This document shows, piece by piece, positions 7,761 through 60,409 of a stretch of 64,000 nucleotides of DNA (its first letter is position 1; each line of letters opens with the position of its first letter). Under the pieces are notes generated by a model. It did not search any database, was not told where the DNA came from, and saw only the letters and a list, made by a program, of their open reading frames with translations. The DNA is from Prorocentrum cordatum (Eukaryota > Sar > Dinophyceae > Prorocentrales > Prorocentraceae). The stretch is from contig CAUYUJ010021133.1 in assembly GCA_963575745.1 (NCBI GenBank), positions 1 to 64,000 on the forward strand. Reading direction: 5' to 3'. Both the position numbers and the translations under genes were made by a program.

Positions 7761-8254
7761 GAGGACCAGTAAGGAGATTGTGAGTAAAGCTGCAGGAGGG
7801 GGACGAAGATGGGAGGAAGAGGGGGGGAGGTCGTCCACTTCCTTATCAATGCCCTTCTGGTGCTCCTTCCTCATGTTCCTCCTTAGCACTGGCATCCTCA
7901 ACATCAGCTTCCCCATCCTCTATAGTAGGGACATCAAGAGGTACCAATACCGCTACTCCCTGGACCTTTCATGGGGTGCGTTCTGACCAACGTTTGGAGG
8001 CGAATCCAGCCATGGCGGCGAAGGCCTTCCAGGAAGCCCAGCCTTTGCTGCCGCGGCTTCTCACATGTTCTCTTCATGGCGCATGGCTTCACTGGCGCGG
8101 TCATCACACTGTGCGCGCGTTGAGAGTAAATTCCCAACCTAGGCTCTGCCTAGAAGGGTTCTTACTCTCTGGGCTTAAAGGGGCCAGGCAGTGGAAAGCA
8201 CCCCGGGCGGTTCCCCCAGTATCCGCCCCGCGGTTCCCCCCAGTTACGTTCCCT

Positions 8255-15749: not shown

Positions 15750-16026
15750 ACCCCCACCCCCAACAGACCCACCACCGGGCACCGCTAAGCGGGCCCGAGG
15801 GACGGGAACGGGAAAAATAATCATCTGCCCCTCCACCTTCGTCTGACGGCCAGCGAACAGCAGCCGCGACGGGGAACGAGGGGGGAGCAAGCAAAAACCC
15901 GCACCACCGCGCACCGCCAAGCGGGCGTGGGGGACGCGGTTCGGCGCAGCTGCTGCTAAACCCGCGCCTCCGCCCCGTTGCCTTGCGGCCACGGCGGGAG
16001 GTAGTAGGAACACAAAGGCAGCTTCG
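15750..16026 (+). other. Leader region before the tyrosine recombinase
   Basis: Non-coding leader of 277 bp. It contains two imperfect copies of an ~40-bp block (GGCACCGCTAAGCGGGC near 15778 and GCGCACCGCCAAGCGGGC near 15907), each followed by a GGGGACG-type end. Confidence 0.5.
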
Positions 16027-18012
16027 ATGGAGAATCCCCACCCCGTTTTGGAGCAGAGCGGGGACGAGGGCCTGCGCGCCCCGCTGGCGCTTCTGACGCC
16101 GCGCCTCGAAAACGCAGTGGAGACATATTGCGCTGCATCGGGCGATTCCGCTGGCGCCGTGCGACAATGGCTGGAAGCGAATTATGTAACCTCACTGCTG
16201 GTGCTGGAAATCCTGGCAGACGAGCTTGGGGAACCAGACCCCGAAACAGACCCACTGCGACCACCGGCGGGCTTCTTCGACCATGCCCTGGATTTGGCAG
16301 AACAGGCGTACCTTGCCATCAAGCACGTGGCAAAAGTCCGAAGGAAGCATGCCACGGCCGACCTCAAAGAGGCGGCACCGCTGCGCACGGTTGAAAACCT
16401 GCGCACGCTGCCCGCGACGGGAGCACAACGACCCTTCAAAAGCTCGCGCCCGCGCGCAGAGCAGCAGCGCGACCAGGAGAGCCTGGACGTGCGCGAGCAC
16501 GAGACGGCGTTGAAGGCATGCCTGCATCTCGTTGACTCAGTGCGCCAACACAGCCAGCGTTGCGCCCGCATGGATGATTGCAGATTGCCGATTGGGGACC
16601 AGCGCAGGCTACTGGCCGAGCTGCTAGGGCGCAAAGCGCGAGTGGCGAGCACGGTCAGACAGCACTCCCGGCATGTCCATCGATTCATGACGTGGCTGGA
16701 ATCGCGCGGCCGCCAGGTTGCAACTGTGACTGAAATCGACGTCAAGGTGTATTTGGACGAGCAGAAGGATCGGGGACATTCTGTGCCCGGTGCTGTGTTT
16801 TCGGCGCTGCGCTGGCTTGACAACGCAATCCAGATGGGGTGGCCGCTGCAGGACGAACTGGTATTGACAGCCGTGACAGAAGCGCACGGAGCGGCAGCCG
16901 CCACGAGAGTGCAGGCGGAACCGTTCACGCAGCTGGTAGTGGACAAACTCCATGACCTCTTCTGGCGGGCACAAGGTGCAGAACGATGGATCACAGGTTT
17001 CTACATCTGCCTCGCCAGCGCTGTGCTCCGCTGGGGAGACCTCCACAGATCGTGGAACCTCGGGCTCACGCGGGATGCCTTGTACGGCACGTCGTACCGC
17101 ACGAACCGGAAAACAGCGCCGACCCCGTGGGCGGCGTTGCGGCACGACGCTGGCGGCCGCGACTGGGGTGGGGCATGGCACGAGCTGACCGGCGCCCTGA
17201 CTCCAGAAAGCGACCCAGGCCAACCACGGAAATGGCTCTGGCCGGCGGTGGAGCACCCCGGGGAGGGTAGACTGGAAATAGCTGCCCCTCTGAGGAAAGG
17301 CTCCTACCACAACTGCTTGCGCACCCTGCAGGTGATCCTCCGCAAGGCAGGAGTGCAAGACACACCGCGGGGGTACACCCTCCATTCGCCGCGTTTCTAC
17401 ATGCCGGCGGTGGTCCGGCAGATTCGTGGCACCAGGGAGCAGGTTGCAGCGGTCGGTCACTGGGCGGACGGAAGCCAGGTCCCTTTGCAATACGACCAGG
17501 CCAGGTGCTGCTCCGAACTGCTGGTGAAGGCACAGGTCTTGCAGGCGCTCTGGAACGGATTCCGACCGGCCGGAAGCTTCGAAGTGCCTCAATTCGGCGG
17601 GCCGCGTGACGTGCACCCACCGCCCGGGCAGCTGACTGAGGGCACCTTCGGGGACCGCAAAGCGGCCCCTGGGCTAGACGCGGAGGCCGCCAAGGCAAGC
17701 GCCGGGCACCAGGGCGACGACCAGGACAGAGACCCAGAATGGATATTGAACGTGCGGTCGGCCATGCTGCACAGGAAGCACCCGTCCCTGACGAACCGCA
17801 GCCTATGCCCGTACGTGCGCAATTACGAAAGCCACAAGAATTACCGGCTGGTCGCCTCCGGAAGCGAGTTGGACGCAGCATTTTGCGCCAGCTGTTTTGG
17901 GAAGGCGAAGGCCGTGGACATGCCTCAATGGAGCTCGCCAGAGGACTGCAGCGGATCTGAGGGTGGGGCCGCGCCCTGTGACAGTGACAGCAGTAGCCCT
18001 GCTGAGTCCTAG
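16027..18012 (+). CDS. Tyrosine recombinase (retroelement integrase)
   Basis: A 661-residue protein. It likely joins the circular cDNA to the genome by a conserved tyrosine recombinase reaction. Residues 205-290 look like the helical N-terminal DNA-binding domain (ASTVRQHSRHVHRFMTWLES). The catalytic domain follows, with the expected order R335 (VLRWGDLH), a lysine such as K362, H453 and R456 (LHSPR), H478 (VGHW) and nucleophile Y489 (LQYDQ). All catalytic positions appear intact. The first 200 residues and a C-terminal Cys-containing region (residues 580-630, CPYVRNY...CASCFG) are extensions that I do not recognise. The ATG at 16027 is the first in the frame. The gene is the first of the element, whereas DIRS-order elements usually carry it last. 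It lies 487 bp before gag, in a different frame. Confidence 0.85.
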   Translation: MENPHPVLEQSGDEGLRAPLALLTPRLENAVETYCAASGDSAGAVRQWLEANYVTSLLVLEILADELGEPDPETDPLRPPAGFFDHALDLAEQAYLAIKHVAKVRRKHATADLKEAAPLRTVENLRTLPATGAQRPFKSSRPRAEQQRDQESLDVREHETALKACLHLVDSVRQHSQRCARMDDCRLPIGDQRRLLAELLGRKARVASTVRQHSRHVHRFMTWLESRGRQVATVTEIDVKVYLDEQKDRGHSVPGAVFSALRWLDNAIQMGWPLQDELVLTAVTEAHGAAAATRVQAEPFTQLVVDKLHDLFWRAQGAERWITGFYICLASAVLRWGDLHRSWNLGLTRDALYGTSYRTNRKTAPTPWAALRHDAGGRDWGGAWHELTGALTPESDPGQPRKWLWPAVEHPGEGRLEIAAPLRKGSYHNCLRTLQVILRKAGVQDTPRGYTLHSPRFYMPAVVRQIRGTREQVAAVGHWADGSQVPLQYDQARCCSELLVKAQVLQALWNGFRPAGSFEVPQFGGPRDVHPPPGQLTEGTFGDRKAAPGLDAEAAKASAGHQGDDQDRDPEWILNVRSAMLHRKHPSLTNRSLCPYVRNYESHKNYRLVASGSELDAAFCASCFGKAKAVDMPQWSSPEDCSGSEGGAAPCDSDSSSPAES

Positions 18013-18140
18013 CGCAAAGAGGCGCGAGAGACCCCTCCCTCCCCGTCACCCCTGGACCTCCTTTCTCCCCTCTGCTCGAAGGGCAATCAGGAGCATGCTT
18101 CAGATGTAGCATCATGGGGTAGGGGGAGACGAAGGAAGTA

Positions 18141-18190
18141 CCCTCTGCCACTGAGCGAATTGATCATGAGACCCTAATTCCTTTGACGTC
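18141..18190 (+). repeat. Inter-ORF direct repeat, copy 1
   Basis: CCCTCTGCCACTGAGCGAAT...TTTGACGTC is repeated at 18280-18329 with about eight differences. The pair sits in the spacer between the recombinase and gag and may be regulatory or a relic of duplication. Confidence 0.7.
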
Positions 18191-18279
18191 TGCAAAGGAA
18201 GATATGGTAGTCAAATGTAGTATGTACTTGTAGATTTTATTGCCGAGGCCATCGCTGATCTATCGATGATGCATGCATA

Positions 18280-18329
18280 CCCCCTGCCACTGAGCGTATT
18301 GACCATGAAACCCGAATTTCTTTGACGTG
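18280..18329 (+). repeat. Inter-ORF direct repeat, copy 2
   Basis: CCCCCTGCCACTGAGCGTAT...TTTGACGTG; see 18141-18190. It ends 170 bp before the gag start codon. Confidence 0.7.
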
Positions 18330-18499
18330 TTACCTCGATTCTCAGAGGAACGACTAAGACATCAGGACGGAGGGGTCGCAGGGCAAACCGCCGAGAGAGG
18401 CAGCATATAACTGCGCCCGCAGCGCGGCCCCTGAGCTCGAACCAACCGCCGGCGCTGCTTGGTCCGCCCGCCCGGCGCGGGGTGGGCAGGCAAGGCAGC

Positions 18500-19699
18500 A
18501 TGGCCAGCTACGACGATGCTCTCGGCCGCCAGCTGGACGTCAACCTCCGGAACCTACTGGAGGAATGTCGTGTCCAGCCGGAGATCGCACAGTGGCTTGT
18601 GGAGAAAAGGATCACCCAGGTCGGAGCCTTCTCAGACTTGGCGGACAGCAAAGAGCAGATCGTCAAGGTGCTCCACATGGCTGGTGCGACCATTGACGTG
18701 AACGACCCTGTGAAGTGCCAGCCGGTCAAGACCGCCTTCAGGCGCGCCCTGGCCATCACGAAGGCCGAGGACGACGCGAGGGCCCGCGGCGAAGACATCG
18801 ACCGCGAGGCGACCCTGGGGTCCGAGGACAGGAAGCGCCTCGACAAGAACACGGCGCAGCATTACAACTTCCAGTGGCTTCAGACGATGCTGGTAGACGA
18901 TGCGACCATGGGGCGCCTCATAAAAATGTTCACCAAGAAGACTCGCTACGTCCCCCGGTTCGGAGAGATCCGAAACCTGATGGAGAAAGGACCAGTCCAC
19001 GAAGGCAAGATCCTGCTTGAGATGTCCACAAACACCGGGCACATCCGGGGCCTGTCAGGGGCCCCGGAAGATGCAGCCATTGGAGGGCTTATTCAGTTCG
19101 GCCGCCGGCACATGATGCTCATGGTGGGCTACGCGCACGCTGCGGGCCCTGACTGGGAGAAAGCAAGCCTCACGACGCTCCTAGACTACCACGAGTGGGT
19201 CATGAAGAAGGCCTACGAGGGCGACCGCACCCGCGAGAAGATCAAGCGCCTGATGGACGCGGACTACGAGATGAGGACCAAGTGGGCGCTTGGTTACAGC
19301 ACCGAGGAGCATCCGACGCTCACGGCAGCTATCCAGCACCACCGCTCCGAGAGCGCCTACCTTTTCCAGGATATCAACAAGAAGACCAACACCTACGGAC
19401 AGTACGAGCAGAACGAGGACAACAACCGGAGACGCGCCAGCTCGGCCAAGGGTTACCAGAACAACCGGCAGCACCAGAACCGCGGCCGGAGCCGCAGCCG
19501 GCGGCCAGAGACGAGCGACAAGCCGTTCATGTTCCAGAAGAAGACGCCCAGCGGGGCCGATATCTGCGTGTTCTACAACAAGGCTGCGGGGTGCAAGGAC
19601 CCCAAGTGCAAGCGGGAACACACCTGCAACTACCCGGGTTGCCACAAGCGGCACACCCGCTGCGACAACCACCCCACCCACCCGCCGAAGCGGAACTGA
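18500..19699 (+). CDS. Gag-like protein with CCCH-type zinc finger
   Basis: A 399-residue protein from the first ATG (MASYDDALGRQ). The N-terminal two-thirds is helical and probably forms the particle: VDDATMGRLIKMFTKKTRYV lies mid-protein. Next comes a basic, Arg/Ser-rich linker (RGRSRSRRPE). The C-terminus has C-X8-C-X4-C-X3-H (CVFYNKAAGCKDPKCKREH), followed by a second Cys/His cluster (CNYPGCHKRH). This finger type replaces the CCHC knuckle in dinoflagellate DIRS-like Gags as I recall them, and its likely role is RNA binding. The stop is a single TGA at 19697; the same frame stays open for 164 codons more, so gag and pol were probably one reading frame. Confidence 0.75.
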   Translation: MASYDDALGRQLDVNLRNLLEECRVQPEIAQWLVEKRITQVGAFSDLADSKEQIVKVLHMAGATIDVNDPVKCQPVKTAFRRALAITKAEDDARARGEDIDREATLGSEDRKRLDKNTAQHYNFQWLQTMLVDDATMGRLIKMFTKKTRYVPRFGEIRNLMEKGPVHEGKILLEMSTNTGHIRGLSGAPEDAAIGGLIQFGRRHMMLMVGYAHAAGPDWEKASLTTLLDYHEWVMKKAYEGDRTREKIKRLMDADYEMRTKWALGYSTEEHPTLTAAIQHHRSESAYLFQDINKKTNTYGQYEQNEDNNRRRASSAKGYQNNRQHQNRGRSRSRRPETSDKPFMFQKKTPSGADICVFYNKAAGCKDPKCKREHTCNYPGCHKRHTRCDNHPTHPPKRN

Positions 19700-20194
19700 G
19701 CGGGGCTGCCATGCAGCCCGGGGCCCGCGGCAACGTGCCAAGTGGTGCGGAGGTACCCCGGGGCCGGGCGAGAGCAGGCAGCGAGTGACGCTACCCAGGG
19801 GGAGTCGAACCCAGGGAAGCAGACAGCTGATTGCTCTCATGGCAGCAGTGGTATCGCTGACTCAGACACTGGCGGCGCGGCAACGACAGTGCCGTCGCGC
19901 GGCCGGGACCCAGCCAGGCTGGCCCGCGTGGCTGCCGCGGGCGACCAACCGACGGGGCAGGTGCGGCTGCCCCTAGTCCCCGGCGGGGCGGGGCCGCAGC
20001 AGTTTCTTGCTGACATGACCCGGGTGAAGCACCCGCTGGAGGCGCCGCCTCCCCTGCCGCAGCGCCTGGCGAACGCGATGGAGTTCATCGCTGAGATCAT
20101 GGCCCTCCGGGAGAGCATCATGCAGGACATCCGGCAGCTCGCCCGGGACCTCGAGGAACGGCCCGCCAGGGCACCGACGGGAAAACGAAACTAA
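19700..20194 (+). CDS. Pre-RT segment of the retroelement polyprotein
   Basis: This frame continues directly from gag's TGA with no in-frame ATG until 20016. The end is clearly protein-like: LADMTRVKHPLEAPPPLPQR, then a long amphipathic helix, then IRQLARDLEERPARAP. In related elements a KHP...LP...helix segment leads into the RT domain, so this is probably the missing N-terminus of the RT protein, now cut off by the 20.2-21.2 kb interruption. It ends at TAA (20192). It would be translated only by TGA read-through or from a copy without that stop. Confidence 0.6.
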   Translation, partial: AGLPCSPGPAATCQVVRRYPGAGREQAASDATQGESNPGKQTADCSHGSSGIADSDTGGAATTVPSRGRDPARLARVAAAGDQPTGQVRLPLVPGGAGPQQFLADMTRVKHPLEAPPPLPQRLANAMEFIAEIMALRESIMQDIRQLARDLEERPARAPTGKRN

Positions 20195-20274
20195 AGGGAA
20201 GGGAGGGCATGAGCACTACGAAGGGAGGAGACAATGGAACGGCAACGCCCACAGGGCGGAAGGGAAAAAGGGGG

Positions 20275-20355
<81 letters not shown>

Positions 20356-21218
20356 TCTCTTACACACACGTGCACATTATATATACACACAAATGCAGGC
20401 GAGCAGCCGCAACAACCAAACGCCCGCTGTCCCTCTACCTTCAGGTGCCTCAAAGGGCACACCGCCGTTTTCCGTCCCCCCTCGTAGGGCAATGCCGCCC
20501 CACCCCCCCCTCCCCCTTCCTGTATGCCAGGGGGGTTTATGAATTCGCCACCTCCGCCCGTCCCCCTTCGCCGCGCCCCCCCCCAGACGGTTCGGGCGCT
20601 CTGGCGGCGTGGTCCCTGGACGCAGGGAACGCAGTTGTCCGGGGGGCAAGGGGCGCGAGGGAAAAGGAAGCAGGAGGGGGGGGGGGGACGACGACGGGGT
20701 GGCGATAACGACGGCGGCGAAGGCGACGACGATCAGGGAGCCGACCGCCGGCCTCCAGCACGCCCTCCCGGGAAGGGCGTCGCGGCGGAGAGCGGGGGGG
20801 GGCGGTGGCGCCAACTTGGGGGGATCATCTAGCGGCCGGTTCCGCATCCAATCCCGCGTGCTGGTCCACCGTCCCGCCCCTCTCCCCCCCCTCCCTTCTC
20901 TGCCCCTCCCTGCCGCGGAGGTTTGGTTGTGGTCCGGACCATGTCCGTCTTCGCCTCTGTCTGAACTGCCCCTCGCCGAGAGCCTTCCGGAGGGCGCCCG
21001 GAATACGAAACTCTGGGAGCTCGCATGCTCTGACGCGGCTTCAGATGCACGCCGGGGAAAGGATTGATGCCGCGGGCCCAGAGGCCCGGAACCGTCCGCA
21101 AGGTGCGGATCGGTTCATTTTCCCGGTTGCGGATAAGAGCGAGGGGGAACGTGCCCGTGGACAGCGTAAGAAAGACAGGATTTGGCACGAGTTTGTTTTC
21201 AGAGGGCCGTCTGATTAA
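20195..21218 (+). other. Interruption between pre-RT and RT segments
   Basis: About 1 kb without coding character separates two parts that should be continuous protein. It holds a (GT)38 tract, G- and C-runs and stops in the relevant frames. AGG occurs near both edges (20169-20171 and 21243-21245), and joining there would restore the frame. That fits an intron or an insertion, but the left edge reads AGGGC and not a standard GT donor. I cannot decide between them. Confidence 0.5.
20276..20351. repeat. (GT)38 microsatellite
   Basis: An uninterrupted GT run of about 76 bp inside the retroelement. Its length suggests that this copy is not under selection for cDNA synthesis here. Confidence 0.97.
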
Positions 21219-23003
21219 TGCCTTATCCCGCCCAAGGAGTTCAGGCCGCGGTACGTGGAAGAGCTGCACCCACGTGTCCGACGCGTGATTGGACACCTGC
21301 ACCTGCCACTGCTGGAAGCACTCCTCCAGACCATAGGGTACACGGAAGACGCTGAATACATGAAGTCGTTAATGCAGGGGCGCCCGATGCTCGGCACAGG
21401 CATGCTGACTACAGGGTTGTATCCGCCACAGCAATCCCGGGCGTTGACATCGTTGACCGATTGGGCGGCGAACCCACGGGACCGGAATCTAGAGATGATA
21501 CGGTCGGTGAAAGCAAATCGCGATCCGGAGCTTGACAAGAAAGTCTGGGACAAGGTCCGGAAAGAAGTCCAGCGAGGATACGCCACCATCCGCGACCTCG
21601 ACGAATTCGACTTGCACGAAGTTTGCTTCACTCCACGATTCCCCAAGTGGGAGCTGAAGGAGACTGGCGAGTGGACGGCCCGACCCATCAGCGACTTCAA
21701 GCGCTCGGGCGGGAACGACACAGTCGACTTGGCTCAGCGGTATACCCCAGAGGACTTGGTCCAGCTGTGGGCCGTCACGAGATGGTGGAAAGAAACGTTC
21801 GGCGACCACGTGCCGCTCATGGGATACCGAATGGACTACGAGATGGCTTTCCGCCAGAGGCCAAAAGACCCAGACCAAACGCATCTAACCTTGGAGATTG
21901 TGTGGGACCCACACGAACAAAAGGTCCGAGTGGTAGACGTAGACGGACAGCCGTTCGGTGGCGCGCTGTCGCAATTCAACTACGTCCGGGACCCTGCCGC
22001 CATGGTGGCGATCGGCAGATCCATGCTGATGCTGGCGATCTCCCATTACGCGGACGACGCGTGGGGAGTGGAGCCGGCCAGACTAGCACAGCAAGCGCAC
22101 CTTCTCTGGATTGAGCTGAACACCCTGGTGGGGTGGCGCATCGACATGGAGAAAAGCCCACCGCCAGCTGATCCATTCAAGCTGTTGGGAGGCCTGCGTT
22201 ACCTTGGCGCGGGGGAGCCCCATAGTTGCCTCCACCCAGCCAAATTGCAGGCGATCCTCGCTCGGATACACGGCCACCTCGACAGTGGTTCAATGACGAG
22301 CTCGGAGGCAGGCACGCTCCGAGGGCAGCTGGGGTGGGCGCGCTCGTTCCAGTTTGGGCGGTTTGGAGCGGCGGCGCTCCGTCCCCTCGCAGAGCGACAA
22401 CACAACAAGCAACACCTGCGACTCAACCCAGCGCTGCGGGCATCCCTGCTGTTCTGGGCACGCGTGCTCAAAATCGCTGGAGGGAAACCGATCCCGTACT
22501 CGCCGGAACGCATGGACCTTCACATCATCGTGACGGATGGTGAAGGAACCGGCTGGGTGGCGGCGGGCTGGTGGCGGCCCCGACAGAGCGATTGGGCGCC
22601 ACGGGTCACTCGCGCCAGGGTGCCGCCGGAGTGGCGGGAGGCGTGGAAGCAGGGCAGCAAAGACATCGACATCAACGAGATCGAGGCAGTAGGACCCATG
22701 CTGGCGATGAACACATGGCCAGAGCTCCGAGGGGGCATGGTGCTGGCCTTCATCGGCAACGAGACAGCCAAGAGCACGCTCATCAAAGGCAACAGCTCAG
22801 TGACGTCCCTCAATGTGATCACGCACCGGACATGGGAAATGTTCCGCGAGAGAGAGCTGCGCGCCTGGATTGAGCGGGTGACGAGTGAAGATAACCCCAT
22901 TGACAAAGCGTCGCGGGGAGACGTGACCGACCGCTACCGGCAGGGATGGACAGCCCACCAAGGGGTGTGGCCAGACATCACTGACTGGGACCTTGTACGC
23001 TAG
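21219..23003 (+). CDS. Reverse transcriptase / RNase H of DIRS type
   Basis: The frame is open from 21219; the first ATG is at 21360, inside conserved sequence, so it was translated as part of a longer protein. Numbering from GTG at 21255 (582 residues): RPISDFKR at 143-150 (fingers), MDYEMAFRQ at 193-201 with D194 (motif A), PFGGALSQFNYVR at 233-245 (motif B), and HYADDAW at 264-270 with D267/D268 (motif C). RNase H follows: D428 (TDGEG), E475 (INEIEA), then FIGNETAK at 499-506 where DIRS-type proteins have FIDN, so the third acidic residue is replaced by G501, and D550 (DNPIDKASRGD). The RT site looks intact; RNase H may be impaired. The stop lies 11 bp before B2. It copies the element's RNA into cDNA. 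Confidence 0.8.
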   Translation, partial: CLIPPKEFRPRYVEELHPRVRRVIGHLHLPLLEALLQTIGYTEDAEYMKSLMQGRPMLGTGMLTTGLYPPQQSRALTSLTDWAANPRDRNLEMIRSVKANRDPELDKKVWDKVRKEVQRGYATIRDLDEFDLHEVCFTPRFPKWELKETGEWTARPISDFKRSGGNDTVDLAQRYTPEDLVQLWAVTRWWKETFGDHVPLMGYRMDYEMAFRQRPKDPDQTHLTLEIVWDPHEQKVRVVDVDGQPFGGALSQFNYVRDPAAMVAIGRSMLMLAISHYADDAWGVEPARLAQQAHLLWIELNTLVGWRIDMEKSPPPADPFKLLGGLRYLGAGEPHSCLHPAKLQAILARIHGHLDSGSMTSSEAGTLRGQLGWARSFQFGRFGAAALRPLAERQHNKQHLRLNPALRASLLFWARVLKIAGGKPIPYSPERMDLHIIVTDGEGTGWVAAGWWRPRQSDWAPRVTRARVPPEWREAWKQGSKDIDINEIEAVGPMLAMNTWPELRGGMVLAFIGNETAKSTLIKGNSSVTSLNVITHRTWEMFRERELRAWIERVTSEDNPIDKASRGDVTDRYRQGWTAHQGVWPDITDWDLVR

Positions 23004-25015: not shown

Positions 25016-25176
25016 TCAAGTCGGGCCTGTCCCTTTACAGGGGGAGGAAAATTTCAGAATAGTCCAGAAATGGTCTGGGGACCATTGTTTGGCCATTTGT
25101 TTGCAATCTTGGAGTATGTTGGGTTTTTTTTATTGTTCGTCGAAAATCCCCCTGTAGGGGGACACGCCCGACTTAA
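25016..25176 (+). mobile_element. MITE family G, copy 1, with 8-bp duplication
   Basis: Begins TCAAGTCGGGCCTGTCCC and ends GGGGACACGCCCGACTTAA; within the arms TCCCCCTACAGGGGGA is itself a hairpin. The 161 bp have no coding capacity. Flanked by GCCTGGCA on both sides. An 8-bp duplication fits the hAT superfamily or others with 8-bp targets; assignment is inference. Confidence 0.8.
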
Positions 25177-25290
25177 GCCTGGCACCGAAGGGGGGTGGGC
25201 GGCGAGGGGCCCCATCCTCGGCCACGCAGGAGGGGAGAGGGCGCAAAGCCCCCCCCCGGTCACGCAAGGGGGGGGGGACAGTAATCTTAC

Positions 25291-25335
25291 GTCGGGCGTG
25301 TCCCCCTACAGGGGGATTTTCGACGATACATACAC
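25291..25335 (+). mobile_element. Family G, left-end fragment
   Basis: GTCGGGCGTGTCCCCCTACA and GGGGGATTTTCGACGATAC, then a TA/CA-rich tract. No right end is adjacent; a matching right-end fragment lies at 27990-28026. Confidence 0.6.
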
Positions 25336-30456: not shown

Positions 30457-30614
30457 TTACCAGCCTGGCACGTATCCCTATCCCTGTGCTGGGCATCTCC
30501 TCATCACGATGCCAATCTCAGGGATTCCCTCGTTCTGTGAGGGCGCATCCCTAAGATTGTCATCGCCTTTGGGCGTGCCAATCTTGGGGATAGGGACAAG
30601 TTCGAGGCTGGTAA
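30457..30614 (+). mobile_element. MITE family T, copy 1, with 5-bp duplication
   Basis: Begins TTACCAGCCTGGCACGTATC and ends with the complement of TTACCAGCCTCGAACTTGTC; the middle has a second pair of arms (CAATCTCAGGGAT and ATCCCTAAGATTG), so the whole 158 bp can fold on itself. It is flanked by AGGTC on both sides. The uninterrupted site GGTTCCAGGTCGACGTTTCC is present at 30790-30809. No coding capacity. Confidence 0.92.
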
Positions 30615-31386: not shown

Positions 31387-31548
31387 TCACCAGCCTGGCA
31401 CATATCCCTATCCCTCCCTGTGCTGGGCATCTCCTCATCACGATGCCAATCTCAGGGATTCCCTCATTCTGTGAGGGCGCATCCCTAAGATTGGCATCGC
31501 CTCTTGGCGTGCCAATCTTGGGGATAGGGACAAGTTCGAGGCTGGTAA
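31387..31548 (+). mobile_element. MITE family T, copy 2 (chimeric flanks)
   Basis: A full-length element with one substitution in the left end (TCACCAGCCT). No duplication flanks it. Its left flank matches that of copy 3 (40 kb) and its right flank, AGGTCGATGTTTCC, matches that of copy 1. Confidence 0.88.
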
Positions 31549-37015: not shown

Positions 37016-37135
37016 TTGCTGCTGTTGTTGGTGAGCTTTTGTTCCCCATATCCTAAGATGGGGTTATTGTTATTACTTGGACGCCTCCAACTCCCTCTCC
37101 CCCTCCTCTTTCCTCCTCCCCTCCTCCTCGTTCCT

Positions 37136-37478
37136 CATATTCAGACCTACTCATATTCAGACTTACTCATGCTCAGACTTTTTCGTACTCAGACCTAGTC
37201 ATACTCAGACTTACTCACACTCAGACATACTCATACACAGACGTACTCACACCCAGACGTACTCATACACATACTTACTCATACCCAGACTTACACATAC
37301 ACAGTATCACTCATACTCAGACTTCTTCGTACCCAGACGTACACAAACACAGACTTACTCATACACAGACCTACTCATACCCAGACATACTCATACACAG
37401 ACTTACTCATACACAGACTTACTCATATTCAAGCACACTCATAGTCAGACCTACTCATACTCAGACTTACTCAACACA
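37136..37478 (+). repeat. 15-bp ACTCATACTCAGACT minisatellite
   Basis: About 23 units of (T/G)ACTCATAC(T/A)CAGAC(T/G/C)T. Being a multiple of three, it gives an open frame of repeated THTQTYSYT, which I do not regard as a gene. Confidence 0.92.
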
Positions 37479-37486
37479 CATCAGAT

Positions 37487-38111
37487 TTGGAGGATGTTCT
37501 GGGCTCAACATCTTTCGTTTGGAGAGCAGATTTGGAGGATGTCTCAGGCGGGGCGCTGGTTTCAGCACCCCTAAGGGGAGCCGCCAGGGGTGCTTGCACG
37601 GGCCCGTTCGCGGCCATTTTGTGGAATGTCTCAGGCGGTTTGCTTGTTTTTGGGCTCAACATCCTTCGCTTGGAGAGCAGATTGTGAGGATGTCTCAGGC
37701 GGGGCGCTGGTTTCAGCACCCCTAAAGGGAGCCGCCAAGGGGTGTTTGCACGGGCCCGTTCGCGGCCATTGTGTGGGGATGTCTCAGGCGGTTTGCTTGT
37801 TCTTGGGCTCAACATCCTTCGCTTGGACAGCAGATTGTGAGGATGTGTCAGGCGGGGCGCTGGTTTCAGCACCCCTAAAGGGAACCGCCAGGGGTGTTTG
37901 CACGGGCTCGTTCGGGGCCATTGTGTGGGGATGTCTCAGGCGGTTCGCCTGATTCTGGGCTCAACATCCTTCGCTTGGAGAGCAGATTGCGAGGATGTCT
38001 CAGGCGGGGCGCTGGTTTCAGCACCCCTAAGGGGAACCGCCAGGGCTGGTTGCACGGGCTCGTTCGCGGTCCGTTTGTGGGGATGTCTCAGGCGGTTAGC
38101 TCGTTTTAATA
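37487..38111 (+). repeat. 152-bp tandem array, about four copies
   Basis: GGGCGCTGGTTTCAGCACCC starts at 37551, 37702, 37855 and 38007. Each unit has two GGATGTCTCAGGCGG-type words, GGGCTCAACATCCTTCGCTT, and CACGGGC(C/T)CGTTCG. The period (151-153) is not a multiple of three. Confidence 0.95.
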
Positions 38112-40045: not shown

Positions 40046-40202
40046 TTACCAGCCTGGTACATATCCCCATCCCTATGCTGGGCATCTCTTCATCACGATG
40101 CCATTATCAGGAAATCCTTTATTTTTGAGGGCGCATCCCTAAGATTGTCATCGCCTTTTGGCGTGTCAATCTTAGGGATAGGGACAAGTTCGAGGCTGGT
40201 AA
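40046..40202 (+). mobile_element. MITE family T, copy 3, with 5-bp duplication
   Basis: TTACCAGCCTGGTACATATC to CGAGGCTGGTAA, 157 bp, flanked by CCCAT on both sides. Same structure as copy 1. Confidence 0.92.
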
Positions 40203-45214: not shown

Positions 45215-46935
45215 TCTCACTTCTGAAGAATAATTGTTTTTGATCCCCCCCGTCCAGTGCACATCTTTGATTTTCCGATTGTGAAGTACCCTTCCCTGGG
45301 CTCGCACCTTGTTCTTTAGCAGGGAAGGTCTTGAGGGTCAAACTATGTTGTTGGCCCCTGGTTTACAACAGCAGCGGCTCCCGCCTGATACTTCCTCACA
45401 ATGCCTCGAAGAATCGCTCTGGAGTCGCGCTCTCGCTGGAGACTTGCTTGCAACTTACTGAAAAATGGCCTTGCGTTGGAATTTTCTGCAATTTGCCCAA
45501 GCGCCGCGCTCCCGACACCCAGGCACCCAGGAGTCGCGCCCGTTGTGGCCCCATGTGCATGCCCTTTGTGGCCCCGCTGTCGCCATTTGTGTCCCCCTCA
45601 CTGTCCTACGTGGCCAAGTTGCTACCCTCAGTGGCCCCATAGTTGCCTTCTGTCGCCCCGCATCATCACTTCGTGGCCCCCGCTCATTCGCGCTCTTCGT
45701 GACCCCATACGCATTCCCTTCGTGTCCCCGCTGTCGCCCTTCGTGGCCTACTTCGTGCCCTTCGCGGCCCTGCTGTCGTTCTCTCTCGCTCTCGCTCTCG
45801 CTCGTCGTCGCCGTCGTCGTCGCCGTCGTCTTCGACGTCGTCGTCGTCGTCGTCGTCGTCGTCGTGGTCGGTCCCCTGTCCGTCCCTCTTGGGGTCGGGT
45901 CGACGGTCCGCGGCCGTCCCGCCGATCAGCGCTGCCGCTGGCCAGGCCGACGGTCCGCGGCCGCCCCGCCGCTTGCCGGGGCCCAGCCTGCAGGGAAGAA
46001 CGGTATACCCCCCAAAAGGGGTTCGATCGAAGACGGAGCGCGGGTATCGACGGTTTGCGAATTACGCGTTATTGGACATTCGAGCATATAAGAGCGAATG
46101 GTCTTAGAATTGTTGTTGTTGCTGTTGAATTCTCATTAATTATTTTTGATCCCCCCCGTCCAGTGCACATGTTTGATTTCCCGATTGAAGTACCCTTCCC
46201 GGAGCTCGCACCTTGTTCCTTAGCAGGGAAAGTCTTGCGGGTCAAACTATGTTGTTGGCCCCCGGTTTACAACAGCAGCGGCTCCCGCCTGATACTTCCT
46301 CACAATGTCTTGAAGAATCGCGCTCTCGCTTGGGACTTCTCTGCAATGTACCGCCGGATCGCGGCTCCCGCTTGATTTGTCCTCGCAGTGTATTGAAGAA
46401 TGGCGTTATCACTTGGGGTTTCCGCGTTCCTTTCGACACCTCTGCAGTTCTCATTATTGTCCGCACCACTCCCAACATCCCGCTTCTTTTCAGGGTTCCA
46501 CGACACTTGTTTCTGACACCAATTCGCAGCTGTACGTCCCCCCGTGGGGTATCCACGATTTTTTTTGTTTTCAAGAGGTTGGTACGTGGCGCTGTTTCTG
46601 GCGCGACCCATGGCGAAACTTATTGTTAACTTGTGTTGGAGTGGCTGGCGCAAGCCATGGCGCAAGCTGAGTCGCCACTCGCAGCGCCGCAAATCATCGT
46701 CCCTCCTTTTTGCCCCTCCCTTCCCTTCCTCCGGTCCTTTCGTCCTCATTCTCTCCCGTTATCTGTTACCCTTCGTTTCCACGGGTTTCACCAACCACAC
46801 GTGGCAGGGAATGAGCATACCCCCAAAAAGGGTGCACGGTCGAAGACGAACAGGCGGGGCGGGTATCCAAGGTTTGGGATATGCAGATTGAATGACACGC
46901 CAACAGATATGAGCGAACAGTCTTAAAATGATTGT
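45215..46935 (+). repeat. Composite dispersed repeat C, copy 2
   Basis: Contains the leader block twice (45235-45480 and 46127-46440), the TTCGTGGCCCC array (45536-45775), a (GTC)n run (45800-45870), and the GGCGCGACCCATGGCGAAAC and GGTATCCAAGGTTTGGGATA blocks. The order matches copy 1 (34765-37015), with one internal duplication. Confidence 0.75.
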
Positions 46936-53306: not shown

Positions 53307-53383
53307 CGTTCCCCCCCACTGCACCGATCTCTCCTCTGTCCGCGGACGCGTGTCATGGCCGACCTGGAATTTGTCAGCATCAG
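53307..53383 (+). repeat. 77-bp target-site duplication of E copy 2, left
   Basis: Matches 53550-53626 at 75 of 77 positions without gaps. It begins CGTTCC and ends GTCAGCATCAG, exactly at the element's edge. Confidence 0.9.
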
Positions 53384-53549
53384 CAAGGGCTCCCTCGAGG
53401 GCGCGAAGTTATTCGCGCTTCGCGCTTCGCGGTCCTCGTTCCTTCTCCCCCTCCTCCTCGTCCTCCTATTCTCCCTTTGGGGGGGCGGCGCGAGAGCGCG
53501 AAGTTATTCGCACTTCGCGCAGCGCGAAGCGCGAAGTTGGGAGCCCTTG
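53384..53549 (+). mobile_element. Foldback element family E, copy 2
   Basis: 166 bp from CAAGGGCTCCCTCGAGGG to GGGAGCCCTTG. Inside each end CGCGAAGTTATTCGC and TTCGCGCTTCGCG words form further hairpins; the centre is pyrimidine-rich, then GGGGGGGCGGCGCGAGAGCG. No coding capacity. It is flanked by a 77-bp direct duplication. Confidence 0.9.
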
Positions 53550-53626
53550 CGTTCCTCCCCACTGCACCGATCTCTCCTCTGTCCGCGGACGCGTGTCATG
53601 GCCGACCTGGAGTTTGTCAGCATCAG
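53550..53626 (+). repeat. 77-bp target-site duplication of E copy 2, right
   Basis: See 53307-53383. After it comes GACCCC, which is not present after the left copy. Confidence 0.9.
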
Positions 53627-54049
53627 GACCCCTTATCGTGTTATGCGACATCTGCAAGGGGCAGTTGAGCAGGAGGAGAAGGAGGTGGAGGAGGAGGAGG
53701 GAGGAGGAGTAGGAGGACGAGGGCAGACGAGCAGCAGCAGCAGCAGCAGCAGCAGCCGGAGCTCGAGGGGAAGGGCCCGGGAGGAGCAGGAGGGCCCTGG
53801 GAAGGCGAAGGAGGGGTAATCGAGGGGGGCCGACAACGACCGGGAGGGACGCGGATCCTGACAGTCGCCCGCTTGTGGGCGGGAGCGCCAGTCCAGACGC
53901 TGGGAGCCAAGCGTTGACTTGAAAGTGAGGCCCACGCTGCACCAGGAGCACCCCCATGAGGCCCACGCTGCAGCGGGAGAACCATCTGGAAGGACCAAGA
54001 AGACGTACTCCGGATTCCATGATAAAGTGGGGGGGGTCACATTTGGGGG

Positions 54050-54990
54050 GGGGTCTAATTTGAGCTGTCTTGAGGGTTCGGGGGGGGTCTGGGCAAAGGG
54101 CCGCTCTTTCGTTGATGGTCTGGGGGGGTCTAAAACTTCTCGTCTAAGAGGGTTGAGACCCCCTCCCTTTTATTACAAAATCTGGAGTAGGCGGATGTCT
54201 AGAAGCCACCCGTTCTGAGGCTGCGCCCCCCTTCTCCTCCCCCTTCTCCGCATAATTCAAGCTCTGCGCTGCCCGCTTAGCTTCGACCGGGAGAGGTGCG
54301 CTCTCGACCCGCGAATCAAAAAAGTCTAGAAGCCACCAAACAAAACACATTGTTGCCCAAGATTGTGTGTACAACGGTAGGCTGAGATGGCAGGACATCT
54401 TCCAGACAAAGTCTGGGGAGAGAGAAGAGAGTAGCACTCACAGAGTGTAATTGTGGAGGAGGGGGAGGAGGACAGCATAAGGAGAGGAGGAGGGTCAATA
54501 ATGTGAGAGTCATGAGGAGGCAGAGCCGGAGGAACGAGAGGAACATGAACAGGATAAGGAAAGATTGGAGGACTGGTTGCGCAATGGTGGGGGGGGGCAT
54601 TGTGTGTGTGTTTGTTGCCCCTCCAGTTTCGCATGGACCCCCTGTCTTTAATCTCAAGAGCCAAGCGTTCGTGGAAAAAAAACACACCTTCCTCAGCCCG
54701 TGTTCGTTCTCCTGGTCGTCGCCTGCGTCGTTGCTCCATTGCTCGTCCCCTGCATCGCCGTCGTCGTCGTCGTCGTCGTCGTCGTCTCCTGAGTCGTGAC
54801 CGTCCTCGTCGCGCAGGATTGCCATTCTTCCCTCTCTATCCGTGTCTCATCTCCCTAGCATCCCTCCCCCTCCCTTCCCCCTCCCTCCTCCCCTGCTCCA
54901 TCCTTTCTCTGCCCTCCTCCCTCGTCCTCCTCCCTCCCTTATCTTCCTGCTGCTCATCTTCCTCCTCCCCCTCCCCCTCACCGCTTCGTC
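54050..54990. other. No gene recognised; G-runs, CTC and GTC tracts
   Basis: Contains GGGGGGTCT words (54030-54135), TCTAGAAGCCACC twice (54198 and 54326), a (GTC)n run (54758-54785) and a CTC/CCT tract (54860-54985). Confidence 0.45.
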
Positions 54991-55234
54991 TCAATCGTGC
55001 CCGGAATCGATGGGGCTGAGGTTTTTCGGAGCCGTCGTTTTTGATCGGGAACCCTCAGGCGCTTTCCCGCCATCCCCAAGCTGGTGGCCCCTTGTCATGT
55101 CCGTGGATGGTGTGAGGAACAGCTTTGCCAGCGGCTCTCGAGGCAGAGGATGCGGGGTGGGCAGTCCCTCTGACGGGGGGGGAGAGGAAGGGACATGCAT
55201 AGTCAAACAGCGAGGGAGGCTTGGGAGGCTCCGC

Positions 55235-55450
55235 GGCCATCTCGAGCCGTCCTGGAGCGGTCTCGGGGCCGCTCGGAGCATCTCGGGAGCCATCTTGAGC
55301 CAGCTTTGGCCATCTGAGCCATCTTGGAGGTCATCTCGGGCTCTCGGAGGCCGCTCGGGGGCCTCTTGGGGGCCTCTCGGGTGCCTCTTGGAGGCCTTTT
55401 CGGGCTTCTTGGGGCGCTCTTTAGGCTCCTTGGGAGCCTCTTGGGAGGTC
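55235..55450 (+). repeat. GCCTCTTGGAGGCC array
   Basis: Units of 10-16 bp on CATCTTGAGCC, CATCTCGGG and CCTCTTGGGGGCC. Open in several frames. Confidence 0.6.
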
Positions 55451-55928
55451 CCTCCCCTTCTCGGGGGCCACGATCTTCGTGAGGGGTGTCAAACATTTGC
55501 CCTCCCAGGGGCCGGAAAAGGACCCTCTGACACCTCGCGACCCCTCCGCCTTCCTGCTCACCTCCGAGACCATTCCCGGGGCCGTTCGCGACGTCACCGA
55601 ACAGCCCCACCTGCCTCGGCATCGCTCGGACGTGTGCATGTGTCTCGGGGAGGACCACCGATGATCAATCCTGGATCATCTGGCAAAACAAAAAAAAACA
55701 TCACGCACGAGACCGACACACGCACGGGGAATGGACGTCCGAGCGACGGCACGCTGCTGTAGTCTGGCTGTCGCGGGAAGTCGGATGGGAGGCGGGGCCT
55801 CGGGACACGAATGCGGATGTGCGGCGGGAGATCGGACATGCGGTGATCACGACTGTGTGGACGGCGTCTCGCTTCAAGCCGGTCCCCGAGCGCATCGTCT
55901 CCGTCGGGGCTCAAGAGACGGAGGTCGA

Positions 55929-56087
55929 TGCAAGCGGGGATCAGTCAGAGTGCTGGCTCTTTCAGGATCCTGCAGAGACAAGGTTGCATTGGCCCGTGCT
56001 TGGGTGCAGGGTCTTGCAGGATCTTGCTGGATCCTGTAGACCCCGACTGACCCGCGTTTGGATTGATCTGGGTCAGTAGATCCCCCG
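55929..56087 (+). repeat. Dispersed repeat D, copy 2
   Basis: GCTTGGGTGCAGGGTCTTGC, GGATCCTGTAGACC, TCAGTAGATCC aligns with 13113-13307; shorter by about 35 bp. Confidence 0.65.
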
Positions 56088-56189
56088 ACTCCACCCGTCT
56101 GGTCTAGCTATGCTAAGTCAGCGCGGCCGCCGCAATCTTGAGCGGCGGAGGCCGCCGGAAGGGAGTGGGAGGTCGGTAAGGGTTTTTGT

Positions 56190-56390
56190 TTCTTCTCCTC
56201 CGCCTCCTCCTCCTTCCCCTCCTCGTCGTCCTCCTCCTCCTCCTCATGATCATCATCCTCATGTTCCACCTCCATATCTTCCTCCTCCACGTCCTCCTCC
56301 TCCTCCACGTCCTCCTCCTCCTCCTCCTCCTCCTCCTCCTCCTCCTCCTCCTCCTCCTCCTCCTCCTCCTCCTCCTCCTCCCCCCACGGG
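56190..56390. repeat. (CTC)n tract
   Basis: Nearly perfect in its last 90 bp. Confidence 0.95.
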
Positions 56391-56519
56391 CGCCATATGG
56401 ATGTGTTGGCCTGGCGTGTGCGTCAGCGTGCGAGACGCGCTCCTTTGGGTACGCGCTCGAGGTGGATGGTCCGAGGGGTGAGCGGCACGTCTCCCCACTT
56501 TGTCTGCGTATCTCTCTGC

Positions 56520-56665
56520 GCTCCCTCCTCCTCCTCCTTTTCCTCCTTCTCATCCTCCTCTTCCTCCCCCTCCTCCACCTCCTTCTCCTCCTCCTGCTCC
56601 TCCTCCTCCTCCACCTCCTTCTCCTCCTCCACCTCCTCCTCCTCCCCCTCCTCCTCCTCGGCATC
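56520..56665. repeat. (CTC)n tract
   Basis: CTCCTC with CTT and ACC variants; directly followed by G copy 6. Confidence 0.92.
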
Positions 56666-56671
56666 TCTTAA

Positions 56672-56836
56672 ACTCGGACGTGTTCCTCTACAGGGGGAGT
56701 ATTCAAACATAGTCAATACGTAGTGCGGGGACGATCTATTGAGTATACTTGAACCTGTTCGAGCAGTTTCTGAGCATGTTCGACAATTGTTCTAATGTTT
56801 CGTCGAACATTCGCCTGTAGGAGAGCTCCTGCGATC
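56672..56836 (+). mobile_element. MITE family G, copy 6 (diverged)
   Basis: CTCGGACGTGTTCCTCTACA, GGGGGAGTATTCAAACA at the left is closest to copy 4; right end TTCGCCTGTAGGAGAGCTCC is degraded. Confidence 0.6.
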
Positions 56837-57029
56837 TCCCGCTCCATCTTCGTAGACCGCCCCAGCGGGCTGTCATTCTGCACCCAGGCGCGCGGTTTCG
56901 ATTGGCCATTCCGCGGTCATTCTGCGAAGAACGGGGGGGGCGGGAGGCGAAGGGCTGGGGAGGGAAGGGAACGCGAGAAATGATGGGGCAGGAGGCCGGG
57001 AAGGGCAGAAGGGGGGGGGAAGGAGGGAA

Positions 57030-57415
57030 GGATTATGCTCCATTGTCCCCTCCTCATCCTTATGATGCCTCCTCCTCCTCGCCCCTCAAAATCTCATCAT
57101 TCCCGTCCCCCTCCCTTCCTCCCGCCCCTCTTCGCTTCGTCCCCGTCCTCCCCTTTCTCCTCCTCCCCCTATCCTCCGTTTTCCTCCTTCCCCCGCCCCC
57201 TCCCCCCATTCCCCTTCCCCCTCCTATCCTTCCTCCTACTCTCATCCCTCCTTCCGTCCCCCTCCTCCCCCTCCTCCTATCCCCCTCCTCCTCATCCCCC
57301 TCCCTCCTCCCCTCCTTCACCCTCTCCCTCCTATCCTTGCCCCTCGCTCTCTCCCCCTCCTCCCTCCGCCCTCCTCCCTCCTCCCTCCTTCCCTCTCCCC
57401 CCCATTCCCACCGCG
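57030..57415. repeat. CCTCCC pyrimidine-rich tract
   Basis: C/T-rich for about 380 bp, less regular than the CTC tracts. Confidence 0.85.
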
Positions 57416-57595
57416 CCCCTTCCTGCCCGCCGCGCTGGGCTGGGCCAAAAATCGGCCGCAAAAGTTCAGCGCGGGGCGGCAGCCTGGAGCCAGGCCGAGC
57501 CCGACTCAAACTGTGCCGCCGCGCCGCGCGGGAAACGGACGCACAGCGCCAGCATCAGACGGGCCGATCTTCGGACGGGGCTAGGACATGATAAG

Positions 57596-57761
57596 CAAGG
57601 GCTCCCTCGAGGGCGCGAAGTTATTCGCGCTTCGCGCTTCGCGGTCCTCGTTCCTTCTTCCCCTCCTCCTCGTCCTCCTTTTCTCCCTTTGGGGTGGCGG
57701 CGCGAGAGCGCGAAGTTATTCGCGCTTCGCGGAGCGCGAAGCGCGAAGTTGGGAGCCCTTG
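57596..57761 (+). mobile_element. Foldback element family E, copy 3
   Basis: CAAGGGCTCCCTCGAGGG to GGGAGCCCTTG, 166 bp, very similar to copy 2. It is flanked by GATAAG (57590-57595 and 57762-57767). Confidence 0.88.
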
Positions 57762-57770
57762 GATAAGCCC

Positions 57771-57846
57771 GTTCCAGAGCGTTCTGGAACGCTCTCAAAG
57801 CGTTTCGGAACGCTCTGAGAAGGCCGCGGCGCCCGACACCTCCTCC
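57771..57846 (+). repeat. Dispersed palindromic repeat R, copy 3
   Basis: GTTCCAGAGCGTTCTGGAAC, GCTCTCAAAGCGTTTCGGAA, then GGCCGCGGCGCCCGACACC. See 14135 and 30066. Confidence 0.7.
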
Positions 57847-57879
57847 AGAACCGCCCGATCTCATAGATATTCGATGTAT
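57846..57879 (+). repeat. 34-bp target-site duplication of E copy 4, left
   Basis: CAGAACCGCCCGATCTCATA...GATGTAT matches 58053-58086 at 33 of 34 positions. Confidence 0.9.
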
Positions 57880-58052
57880 CAAGGGCTCCCCCGAGGGCGC
57901 GAAGTTATTCGCGCTTCGCGCTTCGCGGTCCTCGTTTCTCCTCCCCCTCCTCCTCGTCCTCCTTTTCTCCCTTTGGGGGGGCGGCGCGAGAGCGCGAAGT
58001 TATTCGCGCTTCGCGCTTCGCGGAGCGCGAAGCGCGAAGTTGGGAGCCCTAG
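57880..58052 (+). mobile_element. Foldback element family E, copy 4
   Basis: 173 bp, CAAGGGCTCCCCCGAGGG to GGGAGCCCTAG; it has one more TTCGCGCTTCGCG word near the right end than copy 3. It lies only 118 bp from copy 3. Confidence 0.92.
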
Positions 58053-58086
58053 CATAACCGCCCGATCTCATAGATATTCGATGTAT
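58053..58086 (+). repeat. 34-bp target-site duplication of E copy 4, right
   Basis: See 57846-57879. It is followed by CTGCAACC. Confidence 0.9.
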
Positions 58087-58089
58087 CTG

Positions 58090-60178
58090 CAACCGATGGT
58101 ATCCTGTTCCCGGCTTCGTCTTAGATCTGGCCCAGACGCTTTCGGTTCGGTGGCGGCGAAGATGAATGATGGCGTTGGTGATGGCGATTCATTGAGGATG
58201 CATCGACAACAAACAACTAATCCAAACAGCATAGTGAAGACGCGGCCTCACTGAGGTCCCCGTCGCTGGACCAGGGATGGTGAATCTGAGCGGTCTTGTT
58301 TGATACAGGCGGCCCGGATTAGCAGGTCGACCCTGCCAGATCAAGGGTACCCTCGTGTCCTGTGTCTTGCGACCCATGCCTCCTGCATTTCTGTGGCAAC
58401 GTGGCCCTCGGAAGGGTCTTGTGCCCTCTCGCGTGTCCTCTCCAATCAAGTCCGACCGTACATCTGCAGATGAGGCCCCTATCCTTAATGTTTTGGCTCT
58501 CCTGACTTGGGTCCCCTCCCAGGGGGTTAGGCGCCCCTCCATTGCTAATCAGCTATGACCGTGGTCGCGGTGGTAGTAATGATGAGGATGATTGTGATGG
58601 TAATGATAGAGTCATAAGGATGATGAGCTGGAGGATGACTTTGACTGCGCCTGTGGTGTTGTAGTGATGCGCCAGCGACGGCGACTCCGACGACTTATGC
58701 TGATGATGCCGGTGTACATGATGCGTGTTGACGACCACCATGGGTAAGGGTGAAGGTGATGATGACGAGAAGGATGGTGAGTGGATGTGGAATTGGGAGC
58801 GGAAGCTCTAGAAGACGCTGGGCTTATCAATGTGCCATTCCTGAGTTGATCGGTATTATTGTTCGGCGGAAGTGCAACTCTATACACTTGGCCGATATCA
58901 CTGCTCGGTGGGACCAAGCATCCTAGGCGACAAATTGCAGCACATTTTTACATTGGCACACCGGGTGCGAGTGCGAGGACGTTTTCAGTTAGAGCAGGGG
59001 ATCCGGATGCAGTGTAGCACGGCAGCCATTAGGATGGGTGTGATGAAAGGAATCTGAGCAGGGGATTGGGAGTTTAGGATGGGGCAGAGGATAAATGGAT
59101 GGAGACATTAGAGGGATGCCGAAGAGGATGAGTGAAGGAGGCGAGAGGAAGATTACTGTTAGGAGAACGGTTGAACATCAGTAGCATCATGAGAAGGATG
59201 GCGTCCGCAAGTCGCGTTTTCAAGGGATGCGTTATCCATGGCGGTTAGATTGGCTGGAATGGCAAGTGCTGTCTGCAATTCTGATGGAGCGAATCATTCT
59301 GCTTGGATTCCCCGCTGTAGGAGGCATTCGTTTCATCGACCAGTTGCGGGACGGACGCCTTCGTGTCACTGGCACATCCACCACAAATCCCAGTCCCCCC
59401 CTCGTCCATCACGGGAGTGATTTTGGACGAGGAGGGATTAAGGGGGAGAAGAAGGGAAGAGGAATATGGGGGCGGAGGAGTTGGAAGGAAGGAGCGGGGG
59501 GGACAGGCCGGGCGGGGTGAGGAAAGGAGATGGAGCTCGAGTTGAAGTCGGAGGGGTGATCTTCGCGGCACAAAATTACCATCACATGCTCCCCAGTAGG
59601 TGGCACGTGCTCCACAGCGCCCCGCGGAGGGGAAGACCACCACAGCCCGCTTTGCTGGCGCGACGGTGCTCTGAAGCCATGTTTTTGTTGACAGGTTGCC
59701 TGCAGGCACGGGGGCCAGGACCGACTGCACTGCAAAATCATATCTGAGACGGCATGTACAGGAGGGCGGAGCCGGCAGAGTACGACGGGGAGGGAGGGGG
59801 GGCGGGTTGCAGTGTGCGGTCAGAGCAGCTCTCTTGGCCCAGGGGCACCACCATTGGCACGCCCCGCCGCCTGCCTGGGGCGTCGGATTGGTGGTCGCCT
59901 TAGCGGCCCATCTCGATTGGTCTTCTTACTCGTATTATTGATGTATGCTTCATCGCCTGTTAGCATTCTGTTTCGTACTGTCATTCTGAAGTGTGCTCGC
60001 TCATTGCGTGGGCTCTCGCTTTCATCCGTTGCTGCTGGGAGAACCCGAGCGGCATGCGGGAGGGAGCGCAGTGAGGACGACCACCAGCGGCCCCGGGCAT
60101 CGCTTCCAGGCCCGCCCGCTGCGCCCGTGCTCCCGGCGTGCCTCCGAACGCGGCATGGGCTGACGGCCTCCACCGTGG
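58090..60178. other. Unassigned sequence, no gene recognised
   Basis: Complex, moderately AT-rich for this window, with GATGATG words at 58565-58780. No domain-bearing frame, RNA gene or element end was recognised. It is the longest stretch without evident repeats in the right half. Confidence 0.4.
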
Positions 60179-60210
60179 TGTCTGCTGGAGAGCGATTTTT
60201 CATTCCTGAG
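60179..60210 (+). repeat. 32-bp target-site duplication of E copy 5, left
   Basis: TGTCTGCTGGAGAGCG...ATTCCTGAG, identical to 60378-60409. Confidence 0.93.
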
Positions 60211-60377
60211 CAAGGGCTCCCTCGAGGGCGCGAAGTTATTCGCGCTTCGCGGTCCTCGTTCCTCCTCCCTCCTCCTCCTCGTCCTCCTCTTCTCCCTTTG
60301 GGAGGGCGGCGCGAGAGCGCGAAGTTATTCGCGCTTCGCGCTTCGCGCAGCGCGACGCGCGAAGTTGGGAGCCCTAG
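60211..60377 (+). mobile_element. Foldback element family E, copy 5
   Basis: 167 bp, CAAGGGCTCCCTCGAGGG to GGGAGCCCTAG. Its perfect 32-bp flanking duplication suggests it is the youngest insertion of the family here. Confidence 0.93.
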
Positions 60378-60409
60378 TGTCTGCTGGAGAGCGATTTTTC
60401 ATTCCTGAG
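60378..60409 (+). repeat. 32-bp target-site duplication of E copy 5, right
   Basis: See 60179-60210; followed by CGATGG. Confidence 0.93.

Follow-up and report, generated by a model that had tools for sequence, protein, structure and literature searches.

Element E, a short non-coding family with five copies in the 64,000-nucleotide stretch of Prorocentrum cordatum DNA analysed here (the window, which is the start of the 144,158-bp contig C20284), is a short-duplication terminal-inverted-repeat element resembling miniature inverted-repeat transposable elements (MITEs), in which aberrant insertion is common. Among 119 distinct insertions in the genome, 66 are flanked by a direct repeat of 5-7 bp (an exact 5-7 bp in 52, and 5-6 bp with a single mismatch in 14), 16 by a long repeat of 8-77 bp, and 37 by no repeat. 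On balance, we lean towards the explanation that element E is inserted by a transposase without a fixed stagger, for which 5-6 bp is the normal product and joining at a wrong spacing gives both the long repeats and the insertions lacking one. The initial annotation, in which the family was called foldback family E, had regarded long variable duplications as the habit of the element. The genome-wide counts do not support this view; the long duplications do recur beyond the window, where all but 3 of the 16 lie, but as a minority class, and insertions without any flanking duplication do not form the majority either.

The five window copies, all on the forward strand, are 157-173 bp long and carry 11-bp terminal inverted repeats (TIRs), CAAGGGCTCCC...GGGAGCCCTTG, with ...GGGAGCCCTAG as the right end of the copies at 57880 and 60211. 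These two copies end in TAG and have one mismatch in the TIRs, whereas the other three end in TTG, and the left terminal repeat of the copy at 7604 differs by one base. Re-measuring the edges confirmed direct duplications of 5, 77, 6, 34 and 32 bp, each immediately adjoining the element and unrelated in sequence to the others, as first described. The copy at 7604-7760 lies between two GAGGA motifs (7599-7603 and 7761-7765), and the copy at 57596-57761 between two GATAAG motifs (57590-57595 and 57762-57767). The 77-bp duplication (53307-53383 and 53550-53626, two mismatches) reaches both edges of the copy at 53384-53549; the 34-bp duplication (57846-57879 and 58053-58086, one mismatch, 31 bp of its length exact) encloses the copy at 57880-58052; and the 32-bp duplication (60179-60210 and 60378-60409), exact and extending to 33 bp if the last G of the element is counted as shared, encloses the copy at 60211-60377. 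Between the ends lie a pyrimidine tract and GCGCGAAGTTATTCGCGC-type motifs that form hairpins, and one strand of the copy at 57596-57761, folded as single-stranded DNA, reached -56.1 kcal/mol (z -7.1). The label "foldback" is apt for the 11-bp inverted ends around several hairpins, but there is no single long palindrome. A sixth, diverged copy of nearly full length lies beyond the window at contig positions 85913-86071; inspection of its flanks revealed no plain duplication, and it was left out of the tallies. Pfam searches with 10 window open reading frames (ORFs) found no transposase and nothing that accounts for element E, and neither did Rfam and tRNA scans of the whole window, the G+C content of which is 0.54-0.69 per 2-kb bin.

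As a chance control, we scored adjoining repeats at 400 pairs of positions drawn at random from the window with a spacing of 166 bp. These pairs, for which the slack was 2 bases and repeats had to be below 90 bp, scored 4 at the 95% level, 13 at the 99% level and 17 at most, whereas the 77-, 34- and 32-bp duplications, for which 6 bases of slack and repeats up to 150 bp were allowed, scored 69, 30 and 32. The 5- and 6-bp duplications reach scores of just 5 and 6, and it is the genome survey that makes them convincing. We also searched the home contig (144,000 of its 144,158 bases, 5,100 of them N) for the duplicated segments themselves. The 34- and 32-bp segments occur there at no site except that of their own element, and the 77-bp segment has two more partial matches (33 bp at 88%). 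On this contig, the only one searched, the long segments do not turn up duplicated at element-free sites; such duplication is what the initial annotation had named as fatal to its reading.

The survey drew on an assembly of 4,128,499,153 bases in 21,875 contigs, throughout which element E is dispersed: queries with three window copies returned 138, 449 and 1145 first-look candidates. Forty candidates were scored per query, and flanks were taken from the scored full-length copies. With one copy beside locus L003 and the window copies, this gave 123 copies, of which four were set aside before counting (L024 for its microsatellite flanks, L026 and L087 as the same insertions as L025 and L086, and L035 for an assembly gap). 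The 52 exact short repeats comprise 31 of 5 bp, 20 of 6 bp and one of 7 bp. The long repeats measure 8, 9, 10, 11, 12, 20, 32, 34, 35, 37, 55, 58, 62, 70, 73 and 77 bp; four of these 16 calls (L012, L032, L074 and L080) were made by hand, and the weakest automatic one is L110 (11 bp, G-rich, one mismatch). Short, long and absent repeats number 27, 2 and 8 in set 1 (37 insertions), 11, 8 and 19 in set 2 (38), and 26, 3 and 10 in set 3 (39). The window contributes two short and three long repeats, a long share that is overstated because the window was chosen for this feature. Swapping flanks between copies in 2364 trials produced no long calls; a short call arose in 0.13% of the trials when exact and in 3% with one mismatch, and at the last rate 3 or 4 of the 14 one-mismatch calls may be due to chance. 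At L059, the 20-bp duplicated target is itself a hairpin (GAGAAGG...CCTTCTC, by eye). Exact-word scans of the viral_contigs and genome_contigs collections, from which records of the organism's own genome may be excluded, contained no copy of element E.

The insertions without a repeat could in principle conceal duplications too long for the flanks or old repeats that have decayed. We checked 26 loci for hidden duplications, 10 of set 1 with flanks of about 1.2-1.5 kb and 16 with about 700 bp (L094 was unusable). Only two long repeats emerged, at L012 (about 73 bp, with a later-inserted element nested within the left copy of the duplication) and L032 (about 35 bp, seen earlier), and very long hidden duplications were rejected as the cause of the class; some of the set 3 copies without a repeat and L073, with flanks of only 118-150 bp, may still hide longer ones. 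Decay and the integrity of the ends were assessed on 80 insertions (the window and sets 1 and 2), for which an earlier tally by hand gave 41 short, 14 long and 25 absent repeats. The median divergence from the nearest neighbour is 0.018 for the long, 0.018 for the no-repeat and 0.024 for the short class. Aberrant copies are thus as close to their relatives as normal ones, and decay was rejected for these sets. Among long-repeat copies, the left CAA is preserved in 13 of 14 and a TAG or TTG right end in 13 of 14, and in the 10 tested no terminal match extends more than 1 nt past the repeat. Both ends are kept in 15 of the 25 no-repeat copies, and the left end is altered in 7 of these 25 versus 1 of 41 short copies (p=0.004). 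Over all 119 insertions, the repeat is missing from 19 of 40 TAG-ended and 11 of 67 TTG-ended copies (p=8e-4), and within set 2 alone from 17 of 26 and 1 of 10 (p=0.007). One no-repeat locus, L019, has inverted 6-bp flanks (GAGTTC/GAACTC).

For comparison with another element in the same host, we chose a second foldback family (TTACCAGCC...) with 3386 first-look candidates in the genome. The control sample of 41 copies comprised 38 fetched from the genome and 3 from the window, among them the copies at 30457-30614 (forward strand, 5-bp duplication AGGTC) and 40046-40202. The control has 27 exact repeats, all of 5 bp, 9 with one mismatch, 4 absent and 1 long, so that exact repeats of 5 versus 6-7 bp number 27:0, compared with 31:21 in element E (p=3e-5, all copies). 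With one gapped caller applied to both families and the window copies excluded, long and absent repeats together account for 49 of 114 element E insertions versus 4 of 38 control insertions (about 43% versus 11%, p=1.7e-4), and absent repeats alone for 36 of 114 versus 3 of 38 (p=0.003). In this comparison, L054 (11 bp, one mismatch) counts as long and L012 as lacking a repeat, whereas in the tally of 119 L054 is without a repeat and L012 is long by hand. The difference in aberrant share indicates that the imprecision is tied to element E more than to the host. The single long repeat of the control family, an exact 15-bp duplication at L148, extends the occurrence of rare long repeats beyond element E. 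Another control copy, at 31387-31548, has no repeat and looks recombinant, its left flank resembling that of 40046-40202 and its right flank that of 30457-30614.

DDE transposases and integrases leave duplications of the kind that form the 5/6-bp peak. In the explanation that we favour, element E would be a non-autonomous TIR element moved in trans by a DDE-type transposase presumably encoded elsewhere, with a target-site duplication (TSD) of 5 or 6 bp as the normal product. In a large minority of events, the spacing at which the two element ends join the target would depart from the standard one; an offset in the duplicating direction, followed by gap filling, would leave a long direct repeat abutting exact element ends, and the opposite offset would remove target sequence and leave no repeat. 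We favour one joining chemistry, shared with the 5/6-bp class but lacking a fixed spacing, because the ends of the long class stay mostly exact. More speculatively, and with considerable doubt, element E may represent a eukaryotic system that does not constrain the target spacing of its two ends, so that beside the 5-6 bp mode, strands tens of base pairs apart, or neighbouring or sister duplexes, can be captured and long duplications and deletions are regular products. Dinoflagellate chromosomes are permanently condensed, and such a system might be promoted both by this condensation and by the mutated TAG right end.

Several points weigh against our preferred explanation. The proportion of long repeats taken by itself, 13 of 114 in element E versus 1 of 38 in the control, does not differ significantly (p=0.19), and an excess of long repeats is therefore not established, in a comparison that rests on one other family. 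Long repeats show no association with the TAG end (p=0.33). The altered left ends of the no-repeat copies suggest that some members of that class arose through damaged ends and joining by the host. The surveyed copies are the best-scoring relatives of three window copies and do not constitute a random sample, and a DDE enzyme is suggested by the repeat length and the inverted ends.

The altered left ends would be expected from trimming if an excised, clean-ended element were captured by host end-joining at staggered breaks, fill-in creating a duplication and resection a deletion, with transposition proper making the 5-6 bp class only. Such capture would predict long duplications as well as no-repeat copies, yet the ends of long-repeat copies are mostly exact, neither filler nor microhomology above 1 nt was present at the 10 junctions tested, and the repeats of 7-12 bp are continuous with the 5/6-bp peak. 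A general host process should also have affected both families equally, contrary to the contrast with the control family, and we consider this alternative unlikely. We see still less prospect for a replication-linked alternative transposition, in which ends on two sister chromatids or on two copies join a nearby target and yield a duplication and a deletion as reciprocal products. This scheme would generate long-duplication and no-repeat copies together, and duplications of a related kind have been documented in maize Ac/Ds and further hAT elements (PMC3744419). However, the published maize duplications involve two element copies and short TSDs, whereas in element E the repeats enclose a single copy. 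If the process began with a copy already in place, an excision scar should follow the second repeat; a 4-of-5 match was found in 1 of 10 cases, with 6.7% expected by chance.

The flanking repeats might alternatively not be a signature of insertion, if the element struck pre-existing tandem duplications at their junction or if dispersed copies exchanged flanks by recombination. The recombinant-looking control copy resembles the product of such an exchange, and some of the no-repeat copies could have arisen in this way. Against this, repeats meet both element edges again and again in unrelated sequences, swapped flanks never produced a long call, and the 34- and 32-bp segments have no second site on the home contig; we regard this possibility as very improbable. 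Target-primed reverse transcription of element transcripts, the route of long and short interspersed elements, typically leaves variable or absent repeats, and retro-copied DNA transposons with longer TSDs are described in primates (PMC11195612), but it accounts poorly for the sharp 5/6-bp peak and the mostly intact ends of the long copies, no A-tail was seen at the right junctions inspected, and the primate cases lack TIRs, are 5'-truncated and are partly poly-A tailed, so that this mechanism, which the initial annotation had entertained, has hardly any likelihood left.

The window contains further features. Three long forward-strand ORFs follow one another at 15847-23000: one contains a Pfam phage-integrase SAM-like domain (E 5.6e-5), another ends in Cys/His clusters, and the remaining one lacks a Pfam hit and has 15 unnamed homologues, the identity reaching 73%. 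We presume that they resemble a tyrosine-recombinase (DIRS-like) retrotransposon, for which they are a candidate. Another foldback family (AAGTCGGGC... / TCGTCGAAAATCCCCCTG...) at 25018-25326 has many matches on the contig and in the fetched loci, with one copy inside the left duplication of L012. Direct repeats of 58 bp at 45360-45417 and 46264-46321, 846 bp apart, are unrelated to element E, and an array with a 16-bp period occupies 37067-37514.

Each transposase group is assigned a constant TSD length, by which it is recognised. Element E, with its large aberrant share, and the control family in the same genome offer a natural comparison for what fixes the stagger. If our explanation is true, many copies would escape annotation tools that insist on a short TSD, and the case would bear on the long repeats of IS1634, IS1549 and HERV-K, which lack an explanation.

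Element E shares with MITEs and other short TIR elements, including the control family, a small non-coding body, inverted ends (here 11-bp TIRs), a dispersed distribution in many copies and a mostly short TSD. It differs in having 5 or 6 bp rather than one fixed length, with 37 of 119 insertions lacking a repeat and 16 of 119 having a long one; given the short majority, we call it MITE-like. Its end CAAGG fits the hAT TIR consensus YARNG, which is offered as a lead only. The usual hAT TSD is 8 bp, whereas the majority of element E insertions have 5-6 bp; hAT groups with 5- or 6-bp TSDs exist. The canonical TSD of the retrovirus HERV-K(HML-2) is also 5-6 bp. Like element E, HERV-K(HML-2) is DNA with inverted-repeat ends, inserted in its case by a DDE integrase, and a few of its duplications are long: the excerpts consulted give eight such lengths, between 13 and 450 bp, versus 451 inferred TSDs (PMC5488345). 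This long class amounts to about 2%, compared with 13 of 114 for element E outside the window, and those excerpts describe no large class without repeats. The bacterial elements IS1634 and IS1549 likewise combine fixed element ends with a variable repeat length, their direct repeats ranging from 8 to 514 bp, and according to the report on them no mechanistic model had been put forward (PMC2266710). They have their own transposase, and no 5/6-bp majority is described in the excerpts consulted; in element E, by contrast, the variable repeat is not the ordinary product. The TSDs of fungal KDZ elements vary less, from 4 to 8 bp (PMC12810828). Maize Ac/Ds reversed-ends events also place direct duplications beside a TIR element, but with 8-bp TSDs and two element copies (PMC3744419). 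Introners of dinoflagellates and other algae are short TIR elements in a similar type of genome, and in some of them the element supplies the 3' splice site and the TSD the 5' one (PMC9860276, PMC10666404). An introner was rejected for element E: only 1 of 14 TAG-ended short-repeat copies has a repeat starting with GT, GC or GA (by eye).

Long variable repeats made by DDE enzymes are thus already known from IS1634/IS1549 and HERV-K(HML-2), and the premise that DDE transposases always leave a fixed short duplication was too strict. The matches listed from the literature searched, mostly open-access, included neither a eukaryotic MITE with such a mixture nor the element E family. As far as this literature shows, what is new in element E is a eukaryotic MITE-like family that combines a clear short mode with so large an aberrant share.

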